NCBI GenBank assembly: GCA_947172415.1 | Contig: OX359196.1 | Span: forward strand, 3,040,501 to 3,104,500 | Reading direction: 5' to 3' | Origin: Chondrosia reniformis | Lineage: Eukaryota; Porifera; Demospongiae; Chondrillida; Chondrillidae | DNA length: 64,000 nt | Shown here: positions 16,933 to 62,825 of the stretch, piece by piece | Position numbering within the stretch: the first letter of the stretch is position 1 | Layout of the letters: the number at the start of each line of letters is the position of its first letter | Notes under the pieces: model-generated | The model's input: only the letters and a program-made list of their open reading frames with translations | What the model was told of the DNA's origin: nothing | The model's database searches: none | Translations under genes and position numbers: made by a program

Positions 16933-16963
16933 CATACAACTAGTATATATATATAGTTGTATG
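16933..16963. other. Polarity-switch hairpin, reverse to forward
   Basis: CATACAACTA, an 11-nt TA-rich spacer, then TAGTTGTATG: a perfect 10-bp-arm inverted repeat exactly where satellite polarity changes. Confidence 0.75.
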
Positions 16964-17168
16964 TACTAGTTGTGTGTAGTAGTTTTATGTTCGATATAAT
17001 TATATGAACTAGTTGCATGTACTAGTTGTGTGTACTAGTTGCATGGACTAGTTATATGTACTAGCGGTAAGTACTAGTTGTATGTACTAATTGTAAGTAT
17101 TAGTTGTATGTACTAGTTGAAAGTACTAGTTACTAGTTGTCTGTACTAGTGGTGTGGACTAGTTATGT
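16964..17168 (+). repeat. 13-bp satellite, forward polarity
   Basis: Short forward stretch between the switch hairpin and the 3' end of the Penelope-like element. Confidence 0.93.
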
Positions 17169-17315
17169 GAAAAATCTAAGATACCATTTTCCTACATGCT
17201 ATATGCCTATTCTGTAAAAAGAGCCTATAGGGGAACTAAACCTAAAGAGAGCTTTAGATGAAGATACAGTAGTCTTTTCTTCCTTCTTTTCCCTTCTTTC
17301 ATCTTCTTCTCCACT

Positions 17316-17361
17316 GGGTCAGACAGCCGTTTCTGGGAATTCCACCCTTCATCAGTGATCC
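17316..17361 (-). ncRNA. Hammerhead-ribozyme-like motif, non-canonical
   Basis: Minus-strand order: stem I strand GGATCA, then CTGATGA (17349-17355), a 15-nt segment with GGG/CCC able to form stem II, GAA (17331-17333), ACGGCTGT (17323-17330; short stem III), C at 17322 as the would-be cleavage base, then TGACCC. Stem I pairs at 5 of 6 positions. The first stem II pair would be A-A, a serious defect. Naiads are described as lacking canonical hammerheads, so this may be a relic. Confidence 0.4.
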
Positions 17362-17431
17362 TGGGAGTCTTTGTCTTTTTCTTTATCTTGATCTTCTGTG
17401 AATCCTTGGCTCACTATGCCAAATCTAGGGG

Positions 17432-17459
17432 CCTTATATACACTATTTTGGCGCCAAAA
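17432..17459 (-). promoter_or_regulatory. TATA-like box and E2F-like palindrome in the Naiad 3' UTR
   Basis: On the minus strand TTTTGGCGCCAAAA (17446-17459, a perfect 14-bp palindrome containing the E2F core TTTGGCGC) is followed within ~6 bp by TATATAAGG (17432-17440). Both are kept in the second copy (52176-52202). A promoter in the 3' region fits the pseudo-LTR arrangement of Penelope-like elements, where a tandem upstream copy would drive the downstream one. Activity is inferred. Confidence 0.5.
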
Positions 17460-17616
17460 GTTAAATAAGGTGTTAACTAAGACACATGATGAAATTTAAT
17501 TTTATGAAAGGAATGTAGGTCCAATTAACTTTAATGAATTAATTATAAATCTATTAGTAATCTTGCTTGTACAGGTAAAACAGACTCAGCATAACTATAG
17601 ACACAAGTAGGACATA

Positions 17617-18066
17617 TTACGTAAGTCTACCCTTAGGTCTTCTAGTAGTAACATTTCTTTGGAGGTGGGGTAACACAATATGGGGTAACACAAGACAGTC
17701 CTTAAGCATACTAGCTACTTTTTGCTTATACTTGATTCTAACCAGAGGCTGCCGGGATAGGAAGGTTTTAAAGGTTGATTTTAGCTTAAAGTATTTGTAA
17801 CCCTGCTTAATAAGCCTACTGCATAACTGCAAACTTTTAGCCTGAAAACTGGAGAGGTCACTACATATTCTAGAATACCTAATTAGTTGTGAAATAAAGA
17901 CACCATAGGCTGGGGTATTAGGAATATTACTATCTAAATGGGGAAATTTACTATATCAAAGTTAAAGTCCTCTCGCTTATCATATACTTCAGTGATAAAT
18001 TGATTGTTAGTAATGGTTATATCTAAGTCTAAAAAGGGGGATTTTTTAGGGCTGGTATTTGTCTTT
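17617..18066 (-). pseudogene. Naiad reverse transcriptase C-terminal part
   Basis: Continues the reverse transcriptase in two frames. ELILEKTNTSPKKSPFLDLD to FNFDIVNF (about 18100-17940) lies in the frame open over 17934-18128. A one-base slip at a C run near 17937-17940 then moves to FPHLDSNIPNTPAYGVFISQ, a strongly conserved C-terminal signature of these elements. The end is RRPKGRLT and a TAA at 17617. Two slips in ~150 bp plus the upstream TAG show neutral decay after insertion. Confidence 0.8.
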
Positions 18067-19047
18067 TCAAGAATAAGTTCTAATTGACAGTTCAAAATCC
18101 TTGTTGTTAATACATAAAAGGTCATCAATATACCTATAAGTATTGGAAAATTTAATAGCTAGGGTGATGTTATCCTTAAGTAGTCCTTTCATAAACTCAT
18201 ACTCATAGGCAAACAGAAAAAGATTAGCAACTACAGGGGCACAGTCAGTACCCATAGGGATACCTACACATTGCTTAAATACAGAACCGTCTACACATAC
18301 ATAAATGTTGTCAATAAGGTAATTAAAGAGCTCTACTAAATGAACAGCTGTGACTGCTTTATTGGAGACATTGTTAGACCAAAAGGCTTTATCCTGACAG
18401 ACTTCTATATATTGGGACTTTCTACAGGTATAGGCACTATAAATTAGGTTAGTAATCTTATCTTTAAGTAGGTTATGGGGGATCGCTGTATATAATGTAG
18501 AAAAATCAAAACTAGCTAGCTGGGCTTTTCTAGTGGGTATAGACCTAAGACTATCTAAGACTTCTAGTGAGTTTTCTACTATCCAAAAGGCATTAACACC
18601 AGTATTCCTATATATACCTAGACAGTATTCTCTAAAATGTTTGAGAATTAGTCTGAGTGCCGAATTTAGAAATCTAGAAAGGGGTCTGGTAGTACATTTG
18701 TGAGAGGCGGCTATGAATCTGTAGCTGTAAGGGTTCTTATGTAGCTTAGGCATCCAATAAAAAGAGGGAAGGTTACACCAGTCTGGTTTAGGTTCTAAGT
18801 TCTCTAGTTTTAAGAAATCTATGTGTTTCCTAATTAACTGTTGGGGTTCTACTGTACATTTAGCATAAGTGGAGGTACTGCCTAGTTCTTCATTAATAAT
18901 TTGTCTATAGTAGGACTTACATATAAAAATTATATTATTAGAGGCCTTATCGGCAGGGGCTATAACATACTTATCATGTAGGTCTGCTAAGAATTTCTTA
19001 ATTTTAGGGCAAGTAAGGGTCTTCTTGGCTACTGAGGATTTGGTATA
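18067..19047 (-). pseudogene. Naiad reverse transcriptase core
   Basis: Same frame as the endonuclease segment, resuming straight after the in-frame TAG. 19047 to 18754 is exactly 98 codons, without a stop, to the Met at 18753. Motifs: KYVIAPADKAS (fingers, typical of Penelope-like enzymes), FYWMPKLHKNP, ASFDFSTLYTAIPH (motif A, catalytic Asp), GIPMGTDCAPVVANLF (motif B) and YRYIDDLLCI (motif C, catalytic Asp pair). The frame ends prematurely at 18067 just after motif C, where a frameshift moves the sequence to another frame. Relatives of this enzyme include telomerase reverse transcriptase. Confidence 0.85.
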
Positions 19048-20352
19048 CTATTTAGACAGCTTAGAGATCCTATCATTAATTTTCTTAAGTACAGCATTTT
19101 CCCATTCACTAAATACAGAAGTAGATACATTTTCTCTACGGGCCCAGGTAATCTTATGTTTTCTAAGACCTTCCTTACACATTTTTAAAGCAGTTACCCA
19201 ATTAAAGTTATTAGGTTCTCTAAATTTTGGTCCTTTCTTAAGAAGTTTTCTAAGTTTTGGGTTACTAACAATACGTAGATCACCTGTTAAAACATGGCCT
19301 AGGGGCTTGTAAATGAAGGGGGACTTGTGACACTCACATGGTTCTGGTTTTCTAAAAACATCTGACTTAGAGGTTTGTGAAAAGTTAAAGATTTGAGGTC
19401 CTATTGGTTGGGTATACTTATATACTACACATGGGGGCTCTTTGTTTTGTATAAAGGGTTTGACAGTTTCTAACACTAACTTTTGGTTTAAGATACCTGA
19501 GAGGCCTATTTTTTCTACACCTTTATTATGAAACACGATTTTAAGAAACCCTTCTGGACTTGTTGTTTTCGTTGGGTGTTTGGGAAGGCTGGCTGAAGCG
19601 CGTGCTTTAATAACGTCTTTAATCATTAGCATAAGTCTAAGCGGAAAAGGTGTTTCTGGGGTATCGATGAGACATTGTACCGAGTTTAACAAACGATGAA
19701 GGTGTCGAGCTTGTAATGCAAAAGTATTGCGTTTAAGTTTGGCTAGAAAGCCCACGTTCTTGTAAAGTGGTAGTCGTTCTTTGAGCCATTCAGGGTCGTA
19801 GGCAGCGTTATTACTACTGCCTGTCGATTTTAGATTGGAGCGCCGATGCCGTCTTTTATGAGATAAGCGATTAAAAAGGTTCCATACGATGATTTCTTTT
19901 TTAAGTTTTGAAATATTGCCAACGCCTTTAATGTTATCGTTAAGGCCATATGGGTAAATAGAGCAGAGTTCCTTGAACCAGAATGCTTCTCTCAGTAGTC
20001 TGAGGCTAGTAGAATTAGGTGTCTCAGGTATCTGTTCTATGGGCATAATCAAGGCATCATCAAAACTGTGGTTATCAGAATTAAAGTGATTGTAAAGATA
20101 CAGTGGCTTAAAACCTTTGGTACTAGTCCTATGGTTGTTCATTCTACTCCTAAGCATCTGAGAGGTTTCTCCTACATACTGTACATCACATTGTTTACAA
20201 GTAATAAGATACACAACATTCCTACTCTGGCATCCTAGGGGACCACAAGGGCTATGGACTTGATAGGTCCTGCCAGTCACTGAACTCTTAAAAGTAGGGC
20301 CAGTAACTAAAGAGGGACATGTTTTACACTGCTTATTGCTACACTTCTTAAC
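19048..20352 (-). pseudogene. Naiad GIY-YIG endonuclease and CxC linker region
   Basis: Open frame from the truncated 5' junction to the TAG at 19048-19050; it is open slightly further into satellite (to 20370). Upstream of the nominal GTG at 20280 the frame already encodes KKCSNKQCKTC, a Cys-rich zinc motif. Residues numbered from 20280: VVYLI (22-26) and YVGET (35-39) stand for GIY and YIG; ITCKQC supplies further cysteines; Arg and His residues follow (~44-50); and EAFWFKEL with PYGLNDNI (~97-115) holds the catalytic Glu region typical of Penelope-like nucleases. CEC at ~315-317, within KPEPCECHKSPF, is the CxC linker signature. Its expected role is target nicking for retrotransposition. 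Lacking a native start, it is non-functional as it stands. Confidence 0.85.
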
Positions 20353-23200
20353 TAGTACTAGTTGTATGTACTAGTTGTATGTACTAGTTGTATTTACTAG
20401 TTCTTTGTACTAGTTGTATGTACTAGTTGTATGTACTAGTTTTATGTTCTAGTTGTATAAACTACTTTAATGTTCTAGTTGAATTACTAGTTGTAATTAC
20501 TGTTAGTAGTATGTTCTAGTTGTATGTACTATGAATATGTAATAGTTATATGTGTATGTACTCCTTATATGTACTAGTTGTACGAACTAGTTGTATGTAC
20601 TAGTTATATGACCTAGTTTTATGTACTAGTGGGATGTACTAGTTTTATGTACTCGGTCTATGTACTAGTTCGATGTACTAGTTCTATGTACTAGTTGTGT
20701 GTACTACTTGTATGTGCTAGTTGTCTGTACCTATTAAATGTCCTAGTGTTTGGTTCTAGTTGTTTGTACTACTTGTGTCTACCAGTTGTATGTACTTGTT
20801 GTATGAACTAGTTGTATGTACTAGTTATATGTGTATGTACTAGTTATATGTACTAGTTTAATGTACTAGTTATATGTACTAGTTTAATGTACTAGTTATA
20901 TCTTCTAGTTCTATTTACTAGTTGTGTTTAAAAGTTGTATGTACTAATTGTATGTACTAGTTTTATGTACTAGTTGTAAGTATTAGTTGTATATATGTAC
21001 TAGTTATTAGCTGTATGTACTAGTAGTATGTAATAGTTATATATACTAGTTCCATTAACTAGTTGTATCTAAAAGTTTTATGTAGTAGTTGTATGTCCGA
21101 GTTGTATGAACTATTTCTATGTACTAGTTCTATGTACAAGTTGTATGTACTAATTTCTACTTGTATGTACTAGTCATAAGTACTAGATATATGTTTATAT
21201 ACTAGTTATATGTACAAGCTGTATATCATAGTTATATCTTCTAGTTTTATGAAATATTCCTAAGAACTAATTTTATGTACTAGTTGTATGTACTAGTTGT
21301 ATGTACTATTTGTAAGTACTAATTGTATGTACCAGTTGTATGTAATAGTTACTAGTTGTATGTACTAGGGGTGTGAACTAGTTTTATGTACTCGTTCTAT
21401 GTAATATTTGTAGTACTAGTTGTATGTATTAGTTGTATGTACTAGTTACTAGTTGCATGTACTAGTTGCATGCACTAGTTGTATGTACAAACACTATTTA
21501 TATTTACTAGTTGTGGGTTGTATGTACTATTTCTATGTAGTAGTTTTATGTTCTAATTGTGTGAATTAGTTGTAGTACTAGTTGTTTGTACTAGTTATGT
21601 CTAGTTGTATGTACTAGTTGTATGTACTAGCTGTATTTACTATTTCTTTGTACTAGTTGTATGTATATACTAGTTGCTAGTTGTATGTTCTAGTTGAATT
21701 ACTAGTTGTAATTACTGTTAGTAGTATGTTCTAGTTGTATGTACTATGAATATGTAATAGTTATATGTGTATGTACTCCTTATATGTACTAGTTGTACGA
21801 ACTAGTTGTATGTACTAGTTATATGACCTAGTTTTATGTACTAGTGGGATGTACTAGTTTTATGTACTCGGTCTATGTACTAGTTCGATGTACTAGTTCT
21901 ATGTACTAGTTGTGTGTACTACTTGTATGTGCTAGTTGTCTGTACCTATTAAATGTCCTAGTGTTTGGTTCTAGTTGTTTGTACTACTTGTGTCTACCAG
22001 TTGTATGTACTTGTTGTATGAACTAGTTGTATGTACTAGTTATATGTGTATGTACTAGTTATATGTACTAGTTTAATGTACTAGTTATATGTACTAGTTT
22101 AATGTACTAGTTATATCTTCTAGTTCTATTTACTAGTTGTGTTTAAAAGTTGTATGTACTAATTGTATGTACTAGTTTTATGTACTAGTTGTAAGTATTA
22201 GTTGTATATATGTACTAGTTATTAGCTGTATGTACTAGTAGTATGTAATAGTTATATATACTAGTTCCATTAACTAGTTGTATCTAAAAGTTTTATGTAG
22301 TAGTTGTATGTCCGAGTTGTATGAACTATTTCTATGTACTAGTTCTATGTACAAGTTGTATGTACTAATTTCTACTTGTATGTACTAGTCATAAGTACTA
22401 GATATATGTTTATATACTAGTTATATGTACAAGCTGTATATCATAGTTATATCTTCTAGTTTTATGAAATATTCCTAAGAACTAATTTTATGTACTAGTT
22501 GTATGTACTAGTTGTATGTACTATTTGTAAGTACTAATTGTATGTACCAGTTGTATGTAATAGTTACTAGTTGTATGTACTAGGGGTGTGAACTAGTTTT
22601 ATGTACTCGTTCTATGTAATATTTGTAGTACTAGTTGTATGTATTAGTTGTATGTACTAGTTACTAGTTGCATGTACTAGTTGCATGCACTAGTTGTATG
22701 TACAAACACTATTTATATTTACTAGTTGTGGGTTGTATGTACTATTTCTATGTAGTAGTTTTATGTTCTAATTGTGTGAATTAGTTGTAGTACTAGTTGT
22801 TTGTACTAGTTATGTCTAGTTGTATGTACTAGTTGTATGTACTAGCTGTATTTACTATTTCTTTGTACTAGTTGTATGTATATACTAGTTGCTAGTTGTA
22901 TGTTCTAGTTGAATTACTATTTGTATTTATTGTTGTATGTGTTAGTAGTATGTTCTAGTTGTATGTACTATTTATTTGTACTATTTATATGTGTATTTAC
23001 TGCTTATACGTCCTAGTTGTGTACACTAGTTATATGTACTGGTGGCGTGAACTAGTTACTAGTTGTATGAACTATGACCTAGTTCTATGTACTAGTTGTA
23101 TGTACTAGTTGTATGTACTGCTTGTATGTACAATTTGTATGTACTAGTTGTATATACACGTTACCAGTTTCAGGTACTAGTCATATGCACTAGTTGTATA
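20353..23200 (+). repeat. 13-bp satellite, forward, with a 1215-bp tandem duplication
   Basis: Forward array. The segment from 20472 recurs from 21687, and its start recurs again at 22902, giving a period of 1215 bp. The two full copies (20472-21686 and 21687-22901) look nearly identical by eye, down to rare variants such as TGTCTACCAGTTG and GTGGGATGTACTAG. This indicates recent unequal exchange or amplification. Confidence 0.92.
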
Positions 23201-42067: not shown

Positions 42068-42101
<34 letters not shown>

Positions 42102-46882: not shown

Positions 46883-46932
<50 letters not shown>

Positions 46933-46947
46933 TTTATGGATTATGGT

Positions 46948-46979
<32 letters not shown>

Positions 46980-49091
46980 CGATTATCGATTGATTATTGA
47001 TTATTCATTATTGATTGTTCATTATTGATTATTGGTTATGTATGACAGGTTACTGATTATACATTTTGGTTATAAATTATTATTTATTAGTTGGTTTTTG
47101 TTTATTGATTATGGCTGATGGAATATCAATTATAGATCAGTGATTACTGAATATTGATTATTCATTATTCATTATTGGTTATTGATTATGTATGATTGAT
47201 AATTGATAATGGATTATGGGTTATTGTTTATTTGTTATTGGTTATTCGTCATTGTATATTGACTATGGATTATGGTTTATTGCTTATAGATTATCAATTA
47301 TGGATTTTCGATTGTCCATTAGTGATTATTGATAACGGAATATTGATTATTCATTATTCATTATTGAATATTGATTATGTATGATTGATAATTGATAATG
47401 CTTTATGGCTTATTGGTTTTTGGTTATTGGTATTCGTTATTGTTTATAGTTAATTGATTTTGGTTTATGGATTATTGACTATTGATTATTGATTATTGAA
47501 ACTTTATAATTAATTATGGATTATAGATTATGCATATGGATAATGGAATATCGATTACTAATTAACCATTAACGTTGATCAATAATCGATTAATGATTAT
47601 TGATTATTGATTATTGATTCTTGATTTTAGATTATGCATTACGGATAATCGATTACCAATTTTCCATTATCGATTATTGATTATTGATTATGGATAATCG
47701 ATTTTCGATTATTGTTTATCGATTATGCATAATCGATTATCAATTATTGAATATGGATTATGGATAATCGATTATCAATTATTGAATATATCTTATGGAT
47801 TATTGATTATTGATTATAGTTTGCGGAATATTGATTAGAAATTTTCGATTATCGATTATCGATTATTGAGTATGGATTATTCATAATTGATTATTCATTA
47901 TTGATTATTGATTATGCATGACTGTTTTTTCGTAATGGATTTTGGGTTTTGGTTATTAGTTATTGGTTATTGTTTATTGTTTATTGATTATGGATTATGG
48001 ATTATCGATTATAGATTATTAATAATGGATTATGGGTTATGAATTATCAATTATCGATTAGCGATTATTGATAATTGATTATGTATAATTGATTATTGAT
48101 AATGGAATATGGGTTATTGGTTATTGGTTATTGGTTATTGTTTATTGTTTTTTATTGTCTATTGAATATTGATTATCGATTATCGATTTTCTATTATGGA
48201 TTGTCCATTATCGATTAGTAATTATTGAATACCGAATATTGATAATGGATTATTGATTATTGATTATTGATTATGTATGATTGATTATTGATAATGGATT
48301 ATGGGTTATTGATTTTTGGTTATTGTTTATTGTTTTTGATCCTGGAATATGGATAATTGATTATAGATAATGTATTATTGATTAGTGGTTTTCCATTATG
48401 GATTTTCGATTATCGTTTATGGATAAAGGATTATTGATTGTAGATTATGAATAATCGATTATCAATTATTGCTTTTAAAATAGATAATTGATTATCGATG
48501 ATTGATTATTGATTATTGATTATGTATGTTTGATTATTTAAAATGGATTATGGGTTATTGGTTATTATTGAATATTGATTTTGTATAATTTGATTATTGA
48601 TAATGGATAATGGGTTATTGGGTATAGGTTATTGATAATGGATAATGGGTTATTGGGTAGAGGTTATTGGTTATAGGTTAAGGTCTATTCTTTAATATAT
48701 GGATTATGGATTATTGATAATTGAATATTGATTATTGATTATTGATTATGCATGATTGATTATATAATAGTAAATTTTGATGATGGATTATGGATTTTAG
48801 TTATTGGTTATCGGTTAGTCGTTTTTGCTTATTGTTTATTGATTACGGAGTATGGAAATTGGTTATTAATTATTTAAAATTTATTATGGATAATTGATTA
48901 TAGATTATGAATTATCGAATATGGATTATTGATTATTGATTATTGATTATTGATTATTGATTATTGATTATTCATTAATGACGATTCATTATTGATTATT
49001 GGTTATGTATGACAGGTTAATGATTTTGCATTTTGGCTATAAGTTATTAGTTATTAGTTATTGTTTATTGTTTATTGATTATGGATTATGA
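36553..49091 (+). repeat. Heptamer satellite, GATTATT/GATTATG/GATTATC
   Basis: About 12.5 kb of 7-bp units (GATTATT, GATTATG, GATTATC, GGTTATT, GTTTATT). A composite block recurs at irregular spacings of roughly 170-650 bp: GATTATGTATGATTGATTATT, then GATAATGGATTATGGG, then runs of TTATTGG, then GTTTATT, then GATTATGG and GATTATCG runs. Polarity is uniform, unlike the 13-bp array. Seven is coprime to three, so stop-free frames reading DYGLSIIDY arise without selection; several 60-94-residue frames here are such artefacts. No transposon was recognised inside. Confidence 0.95.
45401..45846 (+). repeat. 223-bp tandem duplication within the heptamer array
   Basis: TTGAATACCGAATATTGCTT starts at 45401 and 45624. 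The two 223-bp copies look nearly identical by eye (one visible change in a GGTTATTGG run). It includes a distinctive GATTAACGATTAACGATTAAAG stretch. Confidence 0.85.
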
Positions 49092-49209: not shown

Positions 49210-51911
49210 TGTGTACATAAAACTACAAGTACCAGTTGTATGTACTTGTTGTATTTACTAGTTTATGTACTAGTTGTACAGAGAAGATGTATGTACTAGT
49301 TATATGTACTAGTAACTTTCAGTATATACTAGTGGTATGTATTAGTTGTTTGAATTAGTTGTATGTAGTTTTATGTACTAATTGTATGTACTAGTTGTAT
49401 GTACTAATTGTTTGAACTAGTTGTATGTAGTTATATGTACAACTTGTATGTATTAGTTGTGTGTAATTTTTGCTTGTACAGTTATATTTACTAGTTTGAG
49501 TTACTTGTTTTATGTACTAGTTGTATATACTAGTAACTAGATGTATGTGCTTGTTGTATTTATTAGTTGAATGTACTGGTTGTATGTACTAGTTTTATGT
49601 ACTAGTTTTATGTACTTGCTTTATATGTGTTTTAGGAAGTTGTTTTCACTAGTTTTATGGACTAGTTGTATGTACTAGATGTATGTACTAGTTGTATGAA
49701 TTAATGTTATGTAGTAGTTGTATGTACTAGTAGTTAGTTGTATTTACTAGTGGTATGTACTAGTTGTATGTATTAGTTGCATGTACTAGGTGTATGAAAG
49801 AGTAGCACTCTGTATTTACTAGTTGTAAGTACTAGCTGTATGGACAATTTGTATGTAGTTATATGGACTAGTTGTATGTACTAGTTTTGTGTAATTGTTG
49901 TATCCACTTGTTATATGTACTAGTTGTAAATTCTAGCTGTATGTACCATTTATATGTACTAGTTGTATGTACTAGTTGTATGTACTAGTTGTACATACTA
50001 GTAACTAGTTGTATATATTCATTGTATGTACTAGTTCTATGTACTAGTTTTATGCATAAGCTGTATGTCCTAATTTTTTTACTAGTTTTATGTACTCGTT
50101 GTTTGAACTAGTTGAATATAGTTATATGTACTACTTGTATATACTATTTGGGTGAAATTTTTGTATGTACTAGTTATATTTACTAGCTGAAGTTACTAGG
50201 TTTATGTACTCGTTGTATGTACAAGTTGTATGTACTAGTATCTAGATGTATGTATTAGTTGTATGTACTAGTTGAATGTACTAGTTGTATGTACTAGTTG
50301 TATATATGTTCTAGTAAGTAGTTGTATGTACTAGTTATATGTACTAATTGTATGTACTAGCTGTATGGACTAGTGTATGTACTAATTGTATGTACTAGTT
50401 GTGTGTACTCATTGTTTGAACTAGTTGTATGTAGTTATATGTACTACTTGTATGTACTAGTTGTGTGTATTTTTCGTATGTACTAGTAACTAGATGTATG
50501 TACTTGTTGTATGTACTTGTTGAATGTTCTAGTTGTATGTACGAGTTGTATGTACTTGTTGTAAATGTGTTCTAGTAAGTAGTTGGACGCACTAGTTATA
50601 TGTACTAGTTTTATGAACTAGATGTATGTACTAGTTGAACGTACAAATATTATGTCCTAGGAGTATGTACTAGTAGTTAGTTGTATTTACTAGTTGTATG
50701 TACTAGTTGTATGTATTAGTTGTATGTACTAGGTGTATGAAGGTGTAACAATCTGTATTTACTAGTTGTAAGTACTAGCTGTATTTAAAATTTGTATGTA
50801 GTTATATGTACTACTTGTATGTACTAGTTGTGTGCAATTTTTGTATGTACTAGTTATATGTACTAGTTTGAGTTACTTGTTTTATGTACTAGTTGTATAT
50901 ACTAGTAACTAGATGTATGTGCTTGTTGTATTTATTAGTTGAATGTACTGGCTGTAGGTACTAGTTGTATGTAATATTAACAAACTATATTTACTAAGTT
51001 AATGTACTAGTTGTATGTAGTAGTGGTAAGTACTAGTTATTAGTTGCATGTACTGGTTATTTGTAATAATTCTATGAACTAGTTGTATGTACTAGTGTAT
51101 GCATTAGGAATAATCTGTATTTACTAATTCTGTGTACTAGTTGTAGGTACTAGTTGTGTGTATATAATTTTAATAATACTAGTTGTATATACTAGTTGTG
51201 TGACATTGTTTTATGTACTAGTTATACGTACTAGTTGTAGGTACTAGCTGTATGTACTAGTTATATGTACTAGTTGTATGTACTAGTTGTATGTTTTAGT
51301 TGTAAATATGTACTAGTAACTAGTTGTATGTACTAGTTGTATGTACTAGTTCTCTGTATTAGTTTTAAGTACTAGTTGCAGGAAATTGATGTATTTACTA
51401 GTGTTATGTACCAGTTGTATGTACTAGTTGTATGAAATAGCTGTATGTACTAGTCATATGTACTCGTGGTATATAATAGTTGTATGTACGAGTTGTATGT
51501 ACTGGTAACTAGTTGTATGTACTAGCTGCGTGTACTAGTTGTAGGTAGTTATATATACTACTTGTATGTACTAGTTGTGCACATTTTTTGTATACTAGTT
51601 AAATTTACTAGTTGTAGCTACTAGTTTTATGCAGTAGTTGAATGTACTAATAACTAAATGTGTGTAGTTATTGTATGTACTAGTTGTATGTTCTAGTTGT
51701 ATTTACTAGTTTTATGTACTAGCTGTATGTACTAGCTGTATGTACTAATTGTATATACTAGTTGTATGTACTAGTAAATAGTTGCCTGTACTAGTTATAT
51801 GTACTAGTTGTATGTACTAGTTGTGTGTAATTGTTTTATGTAATTGTTATATGTACTAGTTGTATGTCATAATTGTATATTTTAATTGTATGTACTAGTA
51901 AGTAGTTGCAT
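49210..51911 (+). repeat. 13-bp satellite, forward polarity
   Basis: Forward array. A block with TAGTTTGAGTTACTTG followed by GTAACTAGATGTATGTGCTTG recurs near 49494, 50866, 57656 and 61624, indicating irregular higher-order blocks across the right half of the window. Confidence 0.94.
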
Positions 51912-52058
51912 GAAAAATCTAATATACCATTTTCCTACATGCTACATGCCTATTCCGTAAAAAGAGCCTATGGGGGAACTAAACCTAAAGAGAGCTTTAG
52001 ATGAAGATCCAGGAGTCTTTTTTTCCTTCTTTTCCCTTCTTTCATCTTCTTCTCCACT

Positions 52059-52104
52059 GGGTAAGACAGCCGTTTCTGGGAATTCCACGCTTCATCAGTG
52101 ATCC
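52059..52104 (-). ncRNA. Hammerhead-like relic in the Naiad fragment
   Basis: The core words CTGATGA and GAAAC and the ACGGCTGTC stretch are kept. Stem II has a second mismatch (GCG against CCC) and stem I pairs at only ~4 of 6 positions. Conservation without pairing argues for a relic. Confidence 0.25.
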
Positions 52105-52175
52105 TGGGAGTCTTTGTCTTTTTCTTTATCTTGATCTTCTGTGAATCCTTGGCTCTCTATGCTAAATCTAGGGGT

Positions 52176-52202
52176 CTTATATACACTATTTTGGCGCCAA
52201 AA
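52176..52202 (-). promoter_or_regulatory. TATA-like box and E2F-like palindrome, second copy
   Basis: TTTTGGCGCCAAAA at 52189-52202 and TATATAAG at 52176-52183 on the minus strand, in the same arrangement as in the larger Naiad copy. Confidence 0.45.
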
Positions 52203-52432
52203 GTTAAATAAAGTTTTAACTAAGACACATGATGAAATTTAATTTGATAAAAGGAATATAGGTCCAATTAATTTTATGAATTAATTATAAATCTATTAGT
52301 AATCTTGCGTATAGGTTAAACAGACTCAGCATAACTATAGACACAAGTAGGACATATTACATAAGTCTACCCTTAGGTCTTCTAGTAGTAACATTTCTTT
52401 GGAGGTGGGGTAACACAATATGGGGTAACACA

Positions 52433-54060
52433 TGTACTTGTTATATGTACTTGTTGTATGTACTGGTTTTGTGTAATTGCTGTATCCACTTGTTATATGT
52501 ACTAGTTGTATGTTCTAGCTGTATGTACCAGTTATATGTACTACTTGTATGTACTAGTTGTCTGTACTAGTTGTACACACTGGTAACTAGTTGTATGTAT
52601 TAGTTGTGTGTACTAGTTGTATGTATTAGTTGTATGTACTAGTTGTATGTATTAGTTGTATGTACTAGTTGTATGTACTAGTTCTATGTACTAGGTTTAT
52701 GCATAAGCTGTATGTCCTAATGTTTTTACTAGTTTTATGTACTCGTTGTTTGAACTAGCTGAATGTAGTTATATGTACTACTTGTATGTACTAGTTGGGT
52801 GTAAGTTTTGTATGTACTAGTTATATTTACTAGTTGTAGTTACTAGTTTTATGTTCTCGTTGTATGTACAAGTTGTATGTACTAGTATCTAGATGTATGT
52901 ATTAGTTGTATGTACTAGTTGTATGTAATAATTGTATGTACCAGATGTATATACTAGGTGTAAGAACTAGTAACAATCTGTATTTAAAAGTTGTATGTAC
53001 TAGTTGTAAGTAATTATATGTACTAGTTGTGTTTACTATTTGTGTGAACTTGTGGTATGTACTAGTTATATGTACTTGTTGTATGTACTAGTTGTATGTA
53101 CTAGTTGCATGTAATAATTGTATGTACCAGATGTATATACTAGGTGTAAGAACCAGTAACAATCTGTATTTACTAGTTGTAGGGACTAGTTGCATGTACT
53201 TGTTTTATGTAGTAGTTGTATTTCCGTACTAGTTGTAAGAACTAGTAAGTAGTTGCATGTACTGGTTATATGTAACAGTTGTATGAACTATATAGTTGTA
53301 TGTACCAGGTGTATGTACTAGTAACAATCTGTATTTACTAATTGTATATACTAGTTGTATGTAATAATGTGTACTAGTTTTATGTGCTGGTTGTATGAAA
53401 TTGTTGTATCCACTTGTTATATGTACTAGTTGTATGTACTAGTTGGATGTACTAGTTACTAGATGTATGTACTAGTTGTATGTACTAGTACTATGTGTAA
53501 AATAGTTTTATGTACTAGTTGTGTGAAATTGATGTATGTACTAGTTATATGTACTCATTGTATGTACTAGCTATATGTACTAGTTATATGGACTAGTTGT
53601 ATGTATTAGCTGTATGTACTAGTTGTATATACTAGTTGTATGTACTAGTTATATACGAGTTGTAAGTACTAGTTGTATGTACTAGTTGTATGTACTTGTT
53701 GTATATGTGTTCTAGTAAGTAGTTTTATGCACTAATTTTATTTACTAGTTGTATGTACTAGATGTATGTACTAGTTGGATGTTCTATTGTATGTAGTAGT
53801 TGAATGAACTAGTAAAATGTTGCATGTTCTAGTTATATGGACTAGTTTTTTGAACTAGTTGTATATACTTGTTGTATATTTGAACTAGTTATATGTACTA
53901 GTTGTTTGTACTGGCTGTAAATAGTAGGTGTATCTACTAGTAACTCTCTGTATTTACTAGTTGAATGTTTTAGTTGTATGTACTAGTACATAGTTGTATG
54001 TACTAGTACATAGTTGTATGTACTAATTGTATTTACTAGTTGTATTTACTAGTTGTGTGT
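52433..54060 (+). repeat. 13-bp satellite, forward polarity
   Basis: Forward array with several AACAATCTGTATTTACTA blocks (near 52972, 53160, 53323). Confidence 0.94.
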
Positions 54061-54245
54061 AGAAAAAATAGGGGAACTTTAAGATCTAAAGCCGATCTTA
54101 AAGCATCGATGTCATCATCATTTAACTCTGGCTATTACCCCGGCCCACTCATGTCCCCTGAGGAGCGCAATGAGCTAATGGACGAAACCGAAGTTCGCTT
54201 GATGGGAACCGGAGTCTCCCCCTAGCCACTCAAAAAGATGCTCGA

Positions 54246-54290
54246 GCCATAGACAGCTGTTTCGTCCTTATTAGGACTCATCAGTATGGC
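54246..54290 (-). ncRNA. Type I hammerhead ribozyme
   Basis: Minus-strand order: GCCATA (stem I), CTGATGA (54278-54284), GTCC-TAATAA-GGAC (stem II, four perfect pairs), GAA, ACAGCTGT (54253-54260, stem III), C (54252), TATGGC (stem I, six perfect pairs with GCCATA). All conserved core bases are present, and the predicted cut is after GTC, between 54252 and 54251. Stem III is an eight-base self-complementary palindrome with no loop, so a monomer cannot close it well. Such hammerheads in animal retroelements act as dimers. The ribozyme would cut transcripts at unit boundaries. Confidence 0.92.
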
Positions 54291-54375
54291 GTACGATGGA
54301 AGTTAGAGTGGATAGTCTGCTAATAAGAACTCCCAGAAGCTAAAAAGCTTGTGGTTTCCTTAACAGCAGATATCC

Positions 54376-54451
54376 GATACAGCCTAAGGTGTGGCTGACC
54401 ACTATTATGTTTTTTTCCATACTAGTGGTCAGCCACACTTATGGCTGTATC
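54376..54451. repeat. Large imperfect hairpin near the ribozyme
   Basis: Arms 54376-54404 and 54423-54451 pair as 9 bp (GATACAGCC/GGCTGTATC), a 4x4 internal loop, then 16 bp (GTGTGGCTGACCACTA and its complement) around an 18-nt loop. On the ribozyme strand it lies upstream of the hammerhead. Confidence 0.85.
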
Positions 54452-54463
54452 CCATCCATTACG

Positions 54464-54741
54464 TACTAGTTCTATGTAGTTGCATGTATGTACTGGTAAC
54501 AATCTTTATTTAAATATTGTTTGGACTTGTTGTATGTACTAGTTGTTTGTAATTATATGTACCAGTTGTATGTACTAATTGTGTGATATTGTTATATGTA
54601 CTAGTTATATGTACTAGTTGTAGGTACTAGCTGTATGTACTAGTTATATGTACTAGTTGGATGTACTAGCTGTATGTACTAGTTGGATTGTACTAGTAAC
54701 TAGTTGTATGTACAAATTTTATGTACTAGTTCCATGCGCAT
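54464..54741 (+). repeat. 13-bp satellite, forward polarity
   Basis: Short forward array between two insertions. Confidence 0.92.
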
Positions 54742-56021
54742 GTGTGACATGTCCACAAATTTCTGATTTTTCTAAATCGTCTTATTAGCGCTTTCAGCGG
54801 TGTCACATTCCAGGCGGAAGTGTCTCTAGCATGTGACCTGCGCGTGAAGCGGAGCACCAGCCACTGAAACGTCACGAGTCATCACTAGTCGTTACGATGT
54901 TAAATTATCAATTGTGAAAACTTATGAGCAATTTATATAGTATAGTGGAGGAAGGCCAACGACGGAGGAAGGCCAATAAAGGCCTACGTGACCGAAACGT
55001 TCTATTTTTCTTTTGATTATACTACGTTAATAATCAAAAGAAGAATAGAACGTTTTTCTTTTGATTACACTACGTTAATAATCAAAAAAGAATAGAACGT
55101 TTCTGTCACGTAAGCCTTAATTCCTCAGCTATTATTAACGTATTATAATAGCTGAGGAATTAAGGCTTACGTGACCGAAACGTTCTATTTTCTTTTGATT
55201 ATACTTCGTTAATTGCTCATACATTTTCGCCATTGATAATTACATAGATATTAGTAGACATGCAATATGCTTACTGTTTCCACTTACCTCTTACAACAAC
55301 AATAAACTCCGATCAAAGAAACTGTATCGCTACCGAGAAGCCTTACTTGACATATCAACTTCGGAAGTCTAATGTTTGTACCAAATATTTGGGTGCATAT
55401 TAAACATCATAAGACGTCATTGTATGATGGCTCAGCTATACTACTAATTTTGGCTGACAATCACGTGACAATACCATTACTCGAAGGAGAAGAGACAAAT
55501 GGAAAACGAACCGATTATTAGACAGTGGAGAATTGTATATCTAACCATTTTTTGACATCAATCTCTTCAGTAAGTAACAGCCTAAAAGTTGTATGTATAC
55601 TCCTGGAATATTCCCTTGTTTAACTGAGATATTAAGTACTAGAGGCACCTGATAAAGGTACGAAAATACGTTTTCGATTATAATTTAAAAAGTAAAGGGA
55701 ATTTAAAAGGAGTGTACATACAATCGTTAGATATCATTATCCTTCATAGGTTGGTGTCACCATTTATTCTATATTCGTATTTTCCACTGTCTAATAAAAC
55801 ATTTTTGGCGATTTGGCACCTATCACTTACGGCCGCTTACGTTCTCCTTTAAGCCTGCAATCGTGACGCTCTTGTAGCCAAACTATTAAGGAAGAATAGC
55901 GCTTCAATTCTATATAATTTGTTTAGTGATACGATGTTTCTAAAGTAAAATAGAATAAATTAAGAAGAGTGTTAGTTAGCGACTTTTATCGAAAATTTCC
56001 GGAAGTATGGACATGTTCCAC
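54742..56021. mobile_element. Palindrome-rich, DNA-transposon-like element, non-autonomous
   Basis: About 1.28 kb of unique sequence in satellite. The ends are weakly inverted: GTGTGACATGTCCA on the left and the complement of GTGGAACATGTCCA on the right (12 of 14 positions). There is no clear target duplication. The left third is full of nested palindromes with repeated ACGTGACCGAAACGTTCTAT and TTTTGATTA...TAATCAAAA hairpins. The remainder (55210-56000) is AT-rich with no frame over 60 codons and no recognised family. It could also be several nested insertions. Confidence 0.5.
55091..55189. repeat. 44-bp-arm hairpin
   Basis: Inner arms 55105-55135 and 55145-55175 are perfect complements (31 bp, loop 9 nt). 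After one mismatch (55104/55176) pairing continues 13 bp outward to 55091 and 55189. CTGAGGA (55152-55158) and GAAAC (55177-55181) lie 18 nt apart on the right arm, a faint hammerhead-core resemblance. Confidence 0.85.
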
Positions 56022-57932
56022 TAGCGTGTATTAGTTTTATGTACTAGTTGTATGTACTAGGTGTATCTAGTATTAATAAACTATATTTACTAAGTTTATG
56101 TACTAGTTGTATGTAGTAGTGGTAAGTACTAGTAATTAGTTGCATGTACTGGTTATTTGCAATAATTGTTTGAACTAGTTGTTATGTATTAGTGTATGCA
56201 TTAGTAATAATCTGTATTTACTAATTCTGTGTACTAGTTGTATGTACTAGTTGTATGTATATAATTATATGTACTAGTTGTATATACTAGTTGTGTGACA
56301 TTGTTTTATGTACTAGTTATACGTACTAGTTGTAGGTACTAGTTGTATGTACTAGTTGTATGTACTAGTTGTAGGTACTAGTTGTATGTACTAGTTGAAT
56401 GTATTAGGTGTATATATGTACTAGTAACTAGTTCTCTGTATTAGTTTTAAGTACTAGTTGAAGGAAATTGATGTATTTACAAGTTTTATGTACTAGTTGT
56501 ATGTACTAGCTATATATACTAGTTATAGGTCCTAGTTGTATGTACTAGTTGTATGAAATAGCTGTATATATTAGTTATAGGTCCTAGTTGTATGTACTAG
56601 TTGTATGAAATAGCTGTATATATTAGTTATATGTCCTAGTTGTATGTACTAGTTGTATGTACTAGTTGTATGAAATAGCTGTATGTACTAGTTATATGCA
56701 CTAGTTGTATATAATAGTTGTATGTACTAGTTGTATGTACTTGTAACTAGTTGTATGTACTAGCTGTGTGTACTAGTTGTATGTAGTTATATATACTACT
56801 TGTATGTACTAGTTGTGTGGATTTTTTGCATACTAGTTAAATTTTACTAATTGTAGCTACTAGTTTTATGTAGTAGTTGAATATACTAATAACTAAATTT
56901 GTGTAGTAATTGTATGTACTAGTTGTATGTTCTAGTTGTATTTACTAGTTGTATGTACTAGTTGTATGTACTAATTGTATATACTAGTTGTATGTACTAG
57001 TAAATAGTTGCCTGTGCTAGTTATATGTACTTGTTATATGTAAAAGCTGTATGTACTAGTTATATATATTAGTTGTATGTACTTTTTGTATGTATTAGTT
57101 TTATGTGCTAGTTGTATTAACTAGTTCTATGTCCTAGTTTTATATACGAGCTTTATGTACTATTTGTATGTACTAGTAATGTGTCCTAGTTGTAGTACTA
57201 GTTGTATGTAATATATAGTGGCATGTAGTGGTTGTACGCACTAGTTGTAAGTACCAGTTGTATGTACTTGTACTATTTACTAGTTTTATGTACTAGTTGT
57301 ATCTAGTTATTTATACGTACTGGTTGTGTGGTACTAGTTGTGTGCAATTGTTGTATGTACTAGTTGTATGTACTAGTTGATATAGTAGTTGTATGTTGAT
57401 ATATATATTTACTAGTTGTGTGTACTAATTGTATGTATATACTAGTTGTATATACTAGTTATATGTACTAGTTGTATGTACTTATCTGTACTAGTTTTAT
57501 GTACTAGTTGTACGCAGAAGTTGTATGTACTAGTTATATGTACTAGTATATACTAGTTGTATGTATTAGTTCTTTGAATTAGTTGTATGTAGTTGTATTT
57601 ACTACTTGTATGTACTAATTGTGTGTATTTTTTGTAAGTACTAGTTATATTTACTAGTTTGAGTTACTTGGTTTATGTACTAGTTGTATATACTAGTAAC
57701 TACATGTATGTGCTTGTTGTATTTATTAGTTGAATGTACTGGTTGTATGTACTAGTTGTATGTACTAGTTTTAGGTACTAGTTTTATGTACTTGCTTTAT
57801 ATGTGTTGTAGGAAGTTGTGTGCACTACTTAATGGACTAGTTGTAAGTACTAGATGTATATACTAGTTGGACATACTAGTAACTAGTTGTATGTATTCAT
57901 TGTATGTACTATATATTTCTATATACTAGTTC
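56022..57932 (+). repeat. 13-bp satellite, forward polarity
   Basis: Forward array. Near 56510-56640 a ~60-bp block (TATAGGTCCTAGTTGTATG...GAAATAGCTGTATATATTAG) is repeated in tandem about three times. Confidence 0.94.
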
Positions 57933-58312
57933 TACCGTAGTTCAGGAAATTTTCGTTGTTAAAATATTTTCGTGGTTGGCTCAAACCAGGAAAATATTTT
58001 AACACGAAATATTTTTAACAACGAATAATAACACGTTGCACAATCTACGTATATATGTAAACGCAACACAGCTGAGCGCGGCCAAAATGGCTCTACTGCG
58101 ATACCTGTAGCGCAAGGACAGTTTACCGGACCCAAAGGGCTCACTTTCGTGAAAGCCGCGAACACAGAGATCCCTTTCGTAATCCTCTATTTCTCAACGT
58201 AATTACGTAACGGGTATAAATTTTCGTGGTAGCCCCCAGACCACGAAAAATTTTAACAAGAAAATTTTTTCCACGAATATTTCCGAACACGAAAATTTCC
58301 GGAACTACGGTA
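57933..58312. mobile_element. MITE with TA target duplication
   Basis: Terminal inverted repeats of 24 bp with one mismatch: TACCGTAGTTC...ATTTTCGT at the left, its complement at the right. Counting TA as the duplicated target, the element is CCGTAG...CTACGG. Removing it with one TA leaves CTAGTTCTATGTACTAG, a normal satellite unit, so insertion into TA is well supported. TA targets suggest Tc1/mariner-type mobilisation. Subterminal palindromes are present (TTCGTTGTTAAAATATTTTC against its complement near 58000-58026, and TTTTCGTGG...CCACGAAAA near 58217-58250). No transposase. Confidence 0.85.
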
Positions 58313-59599
58313 TGTACTAGTTCTATGCATAAGCTGTATGTCCCAATTTTTTAAACTAGTTTTATGTACTAGTTGTTTGAACTAGTTGAATGTAGTTATA
58401 TGTACTACTTGTATGTACTAGTTGGGTGTAATTTTTGTATTTACTAGTTATATTTACTAGGTGTAGTTAGTAGTTTTATGTACTCGTTGTATGTACAAGT
58501 TGTATGTGCTAGTAGCAAGATGTATGTATTAGTTGTATATGTTAGAAGTATGTACAAGATTTATGTACTAGTATCTAGATGTATGTATTAGTTATATGTA
58601 CTAGTTGTATGTACTAGTTGTATTTCTAGTAAGTAGTTGTATGTACTAGTTATATTTACTAATTGTGTGTACTAGAGGTATGGACTAGTGTATGTACTAA
58701 TTGTATGTACTAGTTGTATGTACTAGTAACTATGAGAATATACTAGTGGTATGTACTAGGAACTAGATGTATGTACTTGTTGTATGTGCTACTTGTATGT
58801 ACTTGTTGTATATGTGTTCTAGTAAGTAGTTGGATGCACTAGTTATATGTACTAGTTTTATGAACTAGATGTATGTACTAATTGAATGTACAAACTTTAT
58901 GTACTAGTAGTATGTACTAGTGGTTAGCTGTATTTACTAGTTGTATGTTCTAGTTGTATGTATTAATTGTATGTACTAGATGTATGAAGGAGTAACAATC
59001 TGTATTTTCTAGTTGTAAGTACTAGCTGTATGGACAATTTGTATGTAGTCATATGGACTAGTTGTTTGTATTAGTTGTGTGTAATTGTTGTATCTACTTG
59101 TTATATGTACTAGTTGTATGTTCTAGCTGTATGTACTAGTTGTATGTACCAGTTGTACATACTAGTTGTACATACTAGTAAATAGTTGTATATATTAGTT
59201 GTATGTACTAGTTCTATGTACTAGTTTTTTGTATAAGCTGTATGTACTAGTTATATTACTAGTTGTGGTTACTAGGTTTATGTACTAGTTATATGAACTA
59301 ATTGTATGTACTAATTGTGTGTAATTGTTGTATGTATTACTTATATTTACTAGTTGTAGTTACTAGTTGTATGTAGTAGTAACTAATTGTATGTACTACT
59401 TGTATGTACATGTTGTATATACTAGTAGTATGGACTAGTTGTATGTACAAGTTGTCTGTACTAATTGTATATACTAGTTACTAGTTTTATGTTCTGGTTG
59501 TATGTAGTAGTTCTATGTACTATTTTTTTATACTAGATGTATGTACTAGTTGTATGTAGTTATAGGTACTACTGGTATGTTCTAGTTGTGTGTATTTTT
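58313..59599 (+). repeat. 13-bp satellite, forward polarity
   Basis: Forward array resuming in register after the MITE. Confidence 0.94.
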
Positions 59600-59983
59600 A
59601 GGGGCTGCCACAGGCAGCGCCCTCTATTGTGTTCATAACGCAATTTATGTATGGCTTCATGTTACGTATATATATATATATTTAATACGAGTTCATACGC
59701 AACTATTATAACACATTTTATATGTCAATATATGTATGATACGAGTTCATATGAAACTATTATAACACTTAATTTATACGTCAATACATCCTTTTGCAAA
59801 TGGCGGCGTTCAGGAAGATTTAGTTAATGAAGCTTTTCTATCATTATTTATAATTTCAGGACGCTTAAAGGTTCTCAATTGTTAGGATTAAGAATGATAT
59901 ATCAAAGCCCAACGATGCGGCCAAGTAGATTGAGTAAATTCAGGGGGTGGCAGCCCCACGAGGTTTTAAACTCGAACTACTTC
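59600..59983 (+). mobile_element. Element A, full-length type copy
   Basis: About 384 bp. Inverted ends GGGGCTGCCAC (59601-59611) and GTGGCAGCCCC (59947-59957) match perfectly over 11 bp, and a tail CACGAGGTTTTAAACTCGAAC follows. A ~54-bp core with GAGTTCATAYGMAACTATTATAACAC is present twice (from 59685 and 59739). Flanks TTTT and TGTATACTAG resemble uninserted satellite near 660 and 2650. MITE-like, but the tail outside the inverted repeat is unexplained. No coding frame. Confidence 0.72.
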
Positions 59984-61846
59984 TTTGTATACTAGTTATA
60001 TTCACTAGTTGTAGTTACTAGATTAATGTACTAGTTGTATGCTCTGGTTGTATGTACTAGTAACTGGATGTATGTTCTGGTGGTATGTACTAGTTGTATG
60101 TACTAGTTGTATGTAGTTATATGTAATTGTTGTATGCATATACTAGTTGTTTGTAATTATTTTAAGTACTAGATATATGTAGCAGTTGTATGTAGTAACT
60201 GTATGTGCTAGTTGTAAGTACTAGTAAGTACTTGCATATACTAGTTATATGTACTAGTTGTAAGTAATTATATGTACTAGTTGTAAGTAATTATATGTAC
60301 TAGTTGTATTTACTATTTGTGTGAAATTGTGGTATGTACTAGTTATATGTACTTGTTGTATGTACTAGTTGTCCGTACCAGATGTATATACTAGGTGTAA
60401 GAACTAGTAACAATCTGTATTTACTAGTTTTAGGGACTAGTTGTATGTACTTGTTGTATGTATTAGTTGTATGTCCTAAGTGTATGTACTAGTTGTAAGT
60501 ACTAGTAAGTAGTTGCATGTATTGGTTGTGTGTAACAGTTGATGAACTAGTTGTATGTACCAGGTGTATGTACTAGTAACAATCTGTAGTAACAATCTGT
60601 ATTTACTAATTGTATATACCAGTTGAATGTACTAGTTTTAAGTAATTATATGTACTAGTTGAAACACTAGTTGTGTGAAATTGTTGAACGTAATAGTTGT
60701 TTGAACTAATTGTATGTAATTATATGTACTACTTGTATGTACTAGTTGTGTGAAATTTTTGTATGAACTAGTTATATTTACTAGTTGTAGTTACTAATTG
60801 TATGTACTAGTTGTATGTACTAGTAACTAGATATATGCACTAGTTGTATGTAGTAGTTTGATGTACTAGTTGGATGTACTAGTAACTAGTTGCATATACT
60901 AGTTGTATGTAGTTTTATGTAAATAGTTTTATGTATATACTAGTTGTGTGTAATTGTTCTATGTACTAGTTATATGTAGTAGTTGTATGTAGTTATCATA
61001 TGTACTAGTTATATGTATTAGTTGTAAGTACTAATTGTTAGTACTAAGTGTATATACTATTAACAAACTATATTTACTAAGTTTATGTACTAGTTGTATG
61101 TAGTAGTGGTGAGTACAAGTTATTAGTTGCATGTACTGGTTATTTGTAATAATTGTATGAAATAGTGGTAGGTACTAGTTGTATGTATGTAATTATATGT
61201 ACTAGTTGTATATACTAGTTGTGTGACATTGTTTTATATATGTACTAGTTATACGTACAAGTTATATGTACTAGTTGTATCTACTAGTTGTATGTATTAG
61301 TTGTATATATCTACTAGTAACTACTTGTATGTACTAGTTGTGTGTACTAGTTCTCTGTTAGTTTTAAGTACTAGTTGCAGGAAATTGATGTATTTACTAG
61401 TTTTATGTACTAGTTGTATTTAGTTATATATACGCACTGGTTGTGTGTACTAGTTGTGTGGAATTGTTGTATGTAAGAGATATATGTACTAGTTGTTTGT
61501 ACTAGTAACTTTCAGTATATACTAGTTGTATGTATTAGTTGTTTGAATTAGTTGTATGTAGTTGTAGGTACTACTTGTACGTACTAGTTTTGTGTATTTT
61601 TGTAAGTACTAGTTATATTTACTAGTTTGAGTTACTTGTTTTATGTACTAGGTGTATATACTAGTGACTAGATGTATGTGCTTGTTGTTTTATTAGTTGA
61701 ATGTACTGGTTGTATGTACTAGTTGTATGTACTAGTTATATGTACTAATTGTATGTATATACTAGCTGTATGTACAAGTTATATGATCTAGTTGTATGTA
61801 CTAGTTGTGTGTACTAGTTGTATGTCCTAGTTGTATGTTCTAGTTG
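59984..61846 (+). repeat. 13-bp satellite, forward polarity
   Basis: Forward array. The AACAATCTGTATTTACTA block is doubled at about 60575-60610. Confidence 0.94.
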
Positions 61847-62214
61847 TGTCTAATTGGCACGCCGCAAGAGCCCTTATATTGTTTTCAGAAATTATATTAA
61901 CGTATGGCTTCCTGTTTGTAGTTTTGTAAATATATACATATAGATCTGTTAAAAAATTGCAGACGTTCGAGTAGCTTTCGTTTTCTAGTTTAAAATGAGC
62001 TTTCTCTTCATTAGCGTAGAACATTGAACGAACAAAATGGACTTAAAAACCATCCTTACTAAAAGAATGTAACATAAAGCTTGCGCAAAAATTGACAGCC
62101 TACAAGAGTCGATCTGAAATCAGTTTACCGAATATCCATGAGAACCAGCCAAGTATTTCGAGTTTACTCAGGGTCGGCTAGGGCCCCACGAGTTTTTTAA
62201 ACTCGAACTCCTTG
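61847..62214 (+). mobile_element. Element A, subfamily with both ends
   Basis: About 368 bp. The left half matches the truncated copies at 3393, 26521 and 32641 (GCACGCCGCAAGAGCCC...GGACTTAAAAACC). The right half, missing from those, ends in GGGCCCCACGAGTTTTTTAAACTCGAAC like the copy at 59600. This links the truncated and full-length forms as one family. A 65-codon minus-strand frame is shared with the truncated copies but not conserved enough to call a gene. Confidence 0.7.
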
Positions 62215-62712
62215 TTTTTGCATCTACTAATTGTATGTTTTTGTAGTTACTAATTGTATGTACTAGTTGTATGTACTAGTAACTAGATATATGCACTAGT
62301 TGTATGTAGTAGTTGTATGTACTAATGGTATGTACTAGTTGTAAGTACTAATAAGTAGTTGCATGTACTAGTTATATGTAATAGTTGTATGAACTAGTTG
62401 TAGGTACTAGTAACAATCTGTATTTGCTAATTTTATATACCAGTTGAATGTACTAGTTTAAAGTAATTATATGTACTAGTTGTGTTGAAATTGTTGAATG
62501 TACTAGTTGTTTGAACTAGTTGTATGTAGTTATATGTACTACTTGTATGTACTAGTTGTGTGTATTTTTCGTATGTACTAGTAACTAGATGTATGTACTT
62601 GTTGTATGTACTTATTGAATGTTCTAGTTGTATGTGCTAGTTGTATATGTGTTCTAGTAAGTAGTTGGATGCACTAGTTACATGTACTAGTTTTATGAAC
62701 TAGATGTATGTA
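62215..62712 (+). repeat. 13-bp satellite, forward polarity, right end of array
   Basis: Last satellite segment. It stops in TAGATGTATGTA at about 62712 with no duplication or inverted end visible. Confidence 0.93.
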
Positions 62713-62825
62713 TAGTGCATTTCACCATAAATGTAAAATTTCCAACTGTATAGTGGGGTTTAAAATAGGGCGACAAAAGTGATTAATGTGTTTTGCAAAC
62801 TTGCCACAAAAATAATTATGCTCAT

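Follow-up and report, generated by a model that had tools for sequence, protein, structure and literature searches.

Insertions of a hammerhead retrozyme in the sponge Chondrosia reniformis match the anatomy of Penelope-like elements

Results

A type I hammerhead in a non-coding repeat unit

We analysed a stretch of 64,000 nt from the sponge Chondrosia reniformis (C8:3040501-3104500), hereafter the window, in which a hammerhead ribozyme had been predicted from the sequence alone. The assembly is described as 117.37 Mb in 14 chromosomes plus a mitochondrial genome (PMC12181767); the genome that we searched comprised 117,379,552 bases in 15 contigs. The ribozyme lies in a retrozyme unit bounded by one target site duplication and an inverted stub of a second arm, and the window also contains a Penelope-like element (PLE) with a reverse transcriptase (RT) and a GIY-YIG endonuclease (Table 1).

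Table 1. Features of the window bearing on the retrozyme. Unit positions are written u in family A and b in family B; loci are numbered with the prefix L.
Feature	Position	Strand	Remarks
Type I hammerhead ribozyme	54246..54290	−	RF00163 match with covariation in stems I and II; predicted cut between 54252 and 54251
Palindromic stem III, ACAGCTGT	54253..54260	−	Predicted to cofold into a double hammerhead
Full retrozyme unit, family A	54062..54409	−	348 bp; u1 = 54409, u348 = 54062; left arm of the insertion; same borders repeated in tandem or inverted elsewhere
Tail, u301-348	54062..54109	−	48 nt between outer ends E1 (~u300-301) and E2 (~u348 to u2); hairpin ~54074-54107; ends mapped over 52 loci and the window
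Inverted stub of the right arm	54411..54451	+	41 bp, u342-348 then u1-34; longer in sister copies L009, L010 and L011
Left target site duplication, AGTTGTGTGTA	54051..54061		11 bp; partner lost in the window copy, present in L009, L010, L024 and L025
5'-truncated PLE	16954..20356	−	GIY-YIG before RT; RVT_1 29.4 bits, just below the cut-off of 29.6; 96-98% identical to L061; outside the retrozyme

According to cmscan of the window, the ribozyme matched Hammerhead_1 (RF00163) over model positions 1-45, from 54290 to 54246, with a score of 37.1 bits against a gathering score of 34 (E 1.1e-5). This was the sole Rfam match above its gathering score in the window; a wider Rfam scan returned 11 further matches, all under gathering, to miRNA families and one bacterial sRNA. 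The catalytic core, CUGAUGA...GAAAC...GUC, lacks no base. Stem I (GCCAUA/UAUGGC, 6 bp) and stem II (GUCC/GGAC, 4 bp) contain no mismatch, and stem III is the loopless palindrome ACAG/CUGU. The original prediction had claimed a type I hammerhead with every core base, perfect stems I and II, and a palindromic stem III without a loop, and had suggested a covariance search; each claim held, and the search returned a full-length match. The prediction did not name the strand, which is minus, and the cut that it placed at 54251 agrees with the position predicted here. The window 45-mer folded with a z of −3.3 relative to shuffled sequences, although in its most stable single-molecule fold the bases of stem III are mispaired.

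To the window ribozyme we added those of other loci in three families, A, B and C, described below. Allowing no more than one core mismatch, a requirement that biases the set to intact ribozymes, gave 38 distinct 45-mers, of which 35 were aligned after the removal of three chance matches. Paired cells made up 93.3% of this alignment. The stem III palindrome was kept in 33 of the 35 sequences and broken in two, and three of its four pairs were invariant. Both-sided changes occurred in 3 of the 14 pairs (stem I pairs 1 and 5, stem II pair 2) and amounted to 21 cells as against 5.9 in shuffles. Covariation was 0.148, compared with 0.093 in shuffled alignments, none of 500 of which reached the observed value, and with at most 0.066 when partners were slid. 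The number of doubly changed pairs and that of pair types were not above shuffles (reached by 403 and 482 of 500, respectively). Overall, these data demonstrate compensatory change in stems I and II, through few independent events because most of them trace to a single split between families A and B plus one variant.

Two 45-mers of family A, B or C, cofolded without constraint, gave a double hammerhead. For family A, the cofold had a predicted energy of −34.7 kcal/mol, as against −14.6 kcal/mol for each misfolded single molecule; the catalytic single-molecule fold reached only −8.8 or −8.0 kcal/mol. Cleavage by dimers paired through stem III is plausible because of these unconstrained cofolds.

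The ribozyme had been assigned to a ~400-bp fragment without any RT. The absence of an RT was confirmed, but the fragment is one full 348-bp unit with a 41-bp inverted stub and not the leftover of an RT-bearing element. Units measure 348 bp in family A and 359 bp in family B, and are found singly, in tandem and as head-to-head inverted pairs. The genome search for tandem copies, also suggested with the original prediction, uncovered arrays of both unit sizes (L016, L017, L018, L027, L049 and L055) that could supply dimers; in L049, four full-core B ribozymes are spaced 359 bp apart in a single array with no open reading frame (ORF) between them. The GC contents of the units, 0.46 and 0.43, are under 50%. 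Frames that start at the ATG of the ribozyme core close after 19 aa in A and 51 aa in B, and no frame of 150 aa or more lies over the window unit. The 348-bp unit holds no ORF for an RT or a GIY-YIG endonuclease, and for this reason we did not class it as a PLE. Among seven long frames near copies, Pfam recognized domains in five (two of them below cut-off), none in the other two, and no RT. As RNA, the 348-nt window unit is strongly self-paired (fold z −4.0, 0/100 shuffles as good).

The window copy is embedded in a degenerate 13-bp satellite, TAGTTGTATGTAC, which occurs in both orientations at 1-36549 and 49229-62716, occupies much of the window, and hosts several retroelement insertions.

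Families and copy number

The 33-base core of the window ribozyme, which defines family A, was found at 291 sites of the genome with up to 3 mismatches. A core variant with GCCCAAATGAGGGC in stem II, family B, was found at 227 sites; the two counts may overlap because the cores differ at 4 bases. The reversed patterns gave no site in either case. Outside the ribozyme, units of the two families align over their whole length (score 69, as against a shuffle mean of 23.9 and maximum of 42, n=300). A further variant, family C (L030 and L033), is akin to B at 73-80% identity. A generic hammerhead core pattern matched 267 genome sites as against 13 in the control. RF00163 gave at least 65 matches, at least 51 of them over the cut-off, and none in 14 control genomes; the genome count is a lower bound because 73 of 11921 candidates were scored. 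Listed sites occur on every contig from C1 to C14.

Two outer ends and head-to-head arms

In the window insertion the left arm is complete, with its E2 end at 54062; the right arm stops after the stub and lacks end E1 as well as the second target duplication. The right arm measures ~300 bp in L009, L010 and L011, sister copies that share the flanks of the window copy.

For arm order we took the first 100 listed sites of each family (out of 291 in A and 227 in B) and counted neighbours less than 1 kb apart. Divergent neighbours (−+) numbered 8 in A and 12 in B, and same-strand neighbours 6 and 14, respectively; convergent neighbours (+−) were absent. Opposite-strand neighbours among these sites were thus 20 divergent to 0 convergent (p 1.9e-6), or 18 to 0 once three A pairs that are satellite duplicates of one insertion are collapsed.

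At the 52 loci and in the window, an outer end of an arm was classed as E1 if it fell at u294-312 in A or b300-316 in B, and as E2 if it fell at u338 to u9 in A or b340 to b5 in B; the two classes occupy corresponding places in the alignment of the A and B units. The loci came from the best-scoring searches and the B loci were chosen to include pairs and arrays, so the proportions of one- and two-armed copies carry no meaning. Among 32 two-armed rows, 22 had one arm ending at E1 and the other at E2, three were like-ended (L014, L031 and L027), and seven, including the window copy, had an unclassed end. Because 7 of the 22 are satellite copies of one insertion, the unique scorable insertions number 16 with unlike ends to 3 with like ends (p 0.004). 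The hairpin of the A tail recurs across 22 distinct aligned copies, with some pairs broken.

Repeats of at least 10 bp flanked the element at 19 of 43 unique loci, compared with 27 of 1806 mismatched flank pairs (1.5%). Three of the 19 (L042, L054 and L055) resemble satellite or element sequence and are doubtful.

The two arms of an insertion are closely alike. Mean identities of opposite arms, of units within an arm and of units from different loci were 0.960, 0.964 and 0.925 in A, and 0.982, 0.976 and 0.935 in B. Opposite arms are nearly as alike as, or slightly more alike than, same-arm units, which would follow if both arms were copied from one RNA or from sister RNAs. The alternative that two unrelated RNAs gave rise to the arms finds no support in these values.

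Comparison with retrozymes and Penelope-like elements

Animal non-LTR (long terminal repeat) retrozymes, as described in PMC7229834, resemble the sponge units in their type I hammerhead, tandem repeats of a few hundred bp, GC content under 50%, target duplications of more than 4 bp and the hammerhead-bearing PLEs found alongside them. At 348 and 359 bp, the sponge repeats fall within the ~150-450 bp expected of hammerhead-bearing tandem units; they lack coding capacity, are low in GC and highly self-paired as RNA, and their duplications, where present, exceed 4 bp. The unit is non-coding and belongs with the animal retrozymes, to whose hosts C. reniformis adds a sponge; the main text of PMC7229834 mentions no sponge or other poriferan host, and our search of the literature, confined to open-licence papers, found no relevant report of hammerhead ribozymes in sponges. 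In stem III, judged by description and not by sequence, the sponge ribozyme resembles the satellite hammerheads of newt and axolotl, whose weak stem III has a palindromic element and which cleave better as dimeric constructs (PMC7229834). By contrast, the sponge units show inverted arms in head-to-head order and two fixed outer ends, features that go unmentioned in the sections of PMC7229834 compared here.

These arms have their counterpart in PLEs. In Penelope insertions, two direct pseudo-LTRs (pLTRs) adjoin an inverted one, mostly in head-to-head arrangement; one inverted pLTR may bear a tail of 31 bp, and the duplications measure 8-10 bp (PMC3846280). The purified PLE protein of Anolis cuts and extends both strands, and its RT starts internally, at two adjacent sites between which the genomic 'tail' lies (PMC11167929). 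The sponge units share with the elements of these two papers the partial tandems, the head-to-head inverted arm, the optional tail on one arm, the duplications of ~10 bp and two RT start sites, and with that of PMC11167929 the hammerhead itself; they differ in having no ORF for an RT or an endonuclease. Judged from their anatomy, the sponge insertions thus match a PLE-type footprint of two preferred ends, a tail and head-to-head arms. The kinship with retrozymes and PLEs that had been proposed for the ribozyme is supported by its tandem units, its hammerhead and this anatomy. The earlier interpretation as a whole stands as to hammerhead type, palindrome and kinship, and is amended in that the element is short and belongs to a large family, with copies placed head to head as well as in tandem.

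The Penelope-like element of the window

The PLE listed in Table 1 has a near-identical relative, L061, with a 997-aa frame. In this frame the endonuclease comes first, because GIY-YIG lies near residue 127 and RT-like motifs lie at 614-821; the motif strings were taken from the RT frame of the window, and the whole L061 frame gave no RVT_1 score. PLEs permuted in this way were reportedly described by Craig and colleagues in 2021 (Chlamys and Naiad groups). The GIY-YIG protein has at least 109 matches in the genome, the best other full-length ones being 96-98% identical. In a motif search, minimal hammerhead-like sequences were found in the PLE at L061 positions 855 and 4356, and copies related to the window PLE carry such a sequence in the pLTR. 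The tail of retrozyme family A aligns with the pLTR of this PLE (score 34, 0/1000 shuffles), the two having AGTTCCCCTAT in common. The endonuclease-first PLE is a possible mover of the retrozyme, as a candidate source of the enzyme in trans. The genome also contains other GIY-YIG frames, one of which, of 772 aa, covers 71 of 78 profile positions; further GIY-YIG loci lie at C6:3935966, C12:806474, C6:4375109, C2:5186151 and C9:2894880. A further PLE copy with the endonuclease before the RT lies at 51909-52432 of the window.

Discussion

PLEs have been named strong candidates for the movement of animal retrozymes (Cervera and de la Pena 2020, PMC7229834), and a review calls them likely candidates, partly from their co-occurrence (PMC7761336). 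The insertion anatomy described here, as we read it, supports this proposal. We consider it likely that the hammerhead is part of a retroelement of the animal retrozyme type that is non-autonomous, has no coding capacity and is moved by a Penelope-type two-strand reaction. Tandem copies would be transcribed, and the palindromic stem III would let neighbouring ribozymes pair; these would cleave the multimer to unit length, and a host ligase may close the units into circles. A Penelope-type protein with a GIY-YIG endonuclease and an RT would then cut both target strands ~10-15 bp apart, as the anatomy suggests. Both target 3' ends would prime copying of the same short RNA, from E1 in one case and from E2 in the other, on either side of the hairpin tail, and the two cDNAs would run along the repeated template, or round it, and join head to head. 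In a more specific form, which we offer tentatively and do not rate as probable, the reaction uses a single small, probably circular RNA on which both strands prime at the two fixed sites round the tail and the cDNAs meet head to head; the palindrome of stem III may be conserved to pair two RNAs in the complex as well as for cleavage.

Several observations weigh against the two-strand reaction or parts of it. Like ends were seen in 3 of 19 unique two-armed insertions, and seven further two-armed rows could not be scored. At 24 of the 43 unique loci, no flank repeat of at least 10 bp was found. The identity ranges of opposite arms and of different loci overlap (95th percentile between loci 0.973 in A and 0.989 in B), the means having been compared without a formal test. 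None of 69 inner ends lay within 4 nt of the ribozyme cut, where by our arithmetic ~1.8 were expected; the copying of cut linear monomers is therefore unsupported, and we rejected the cut as the source of 5' ends. The densest 20-nt windows of inner ends (A u280-299, B b104-123) were not significant either, 157 and 187 of 2000 random sets being as dense. Hammerhead mutants of the Anolis PLE still insert in vitro (PMC11167929), which bears on the need for the ribozyme. As to the endonuclease-first PLE, 22 rows were compared, from 20 fetched loci and two window stretches; 21 of them have the 3' end at a single site, p1042-1054, and the remaining row, L080, runs from p1043 into an inverted PLE piece. 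No inverted arm was present at any of the 10 fetched 5' ends, and this PLE was rejected as the origin of head-to-head arms. Its pLTR gave no alignment with the tails of families B and C (scores 14-15), so that a tail common to these families and the PLE was likewise rejected.

The units might instead be solo or partial pLTRs of a canonical PLE with a C-terminal endonuclease that have lost their ORF, in which case no separate retrozyme lineage would exist. The hammerhead, tail, inverted arm and length of the duplications are all those of PLE pLTRs, the core contains an ATG as in the Anolis PLE (PMC11167929), and the 772-aa GIY-YIG frame is among those that might belong to such an element. Even so, we regard this origin as unlikely: the L049 array sets four intact ribozymes one unit apart with nothing coding between them, the frames from the core ATG end within 19 and 51 aa, and units A and B gave no BLAST match under E 0.06 to two long PLE copies. 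A LINE-type (long interspersed nuclear element) protein acting by twin priming would also explain inverted arms, as twin priming yields inverted L1 copies between target duplications (PMC2837659), and the window contains a LINE-like RT frame (8275-9849, 524 aa, RVT_1 88.7 bits). Two fixed internal starts that bound a tail, together with extension on both strands, are reported for PLEs and contrasted with R2 and L1 (PMC11167929), and the A tail resembles a PLE pLTR; we hold a LINE-type mover to be quite improbable. Least credible is passive satellite DNA multiplied by unequal exchange and segmental duplication without retrotransposition. The setting of the window copy in the 13-bp satellite and the sisters with the same flanks (L009-L012, and L015, L021, L022 and L024-L026) speak for such multiplication. 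It does not account for sites on each of the 14 contigs, for flank repeats of 10-15 bp that are distinct at each locus and far more frequent than in the control, or for preferred ends and a one-sided arm order.

The PLE-type footprint is the valuable part of the finding. The sponge, added here as a retrozyme host, has copies whose footprint bears on the question of which enzyme spreads animal retrozymes. If the two-sided Penelope reaction holds, every insertion records its priming sites, and the link between retrozymes and PLEs becomes testable from genomes alone; the same scoring of ends and arms can be applied to corals, mussels and axolotl.

Other repeats in the window

Blocks of the 13-bp satellite within ~20355-36549 recur at a shift of ~6.1 kb, as do 24697-26355 and 30817-32475, a pattern suggestive of segmental duplication. 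An array of a 7-bp unit (TGATTAT) extends over 12.5 kb, 36608-49089, and has a strong GC skew. Just beyond the retrozyme, at 54979-55200, a hairpin of CTTTTGATTA..TAATCAAAAG flanked by GAATAGAACG recurs in several inverted copies.
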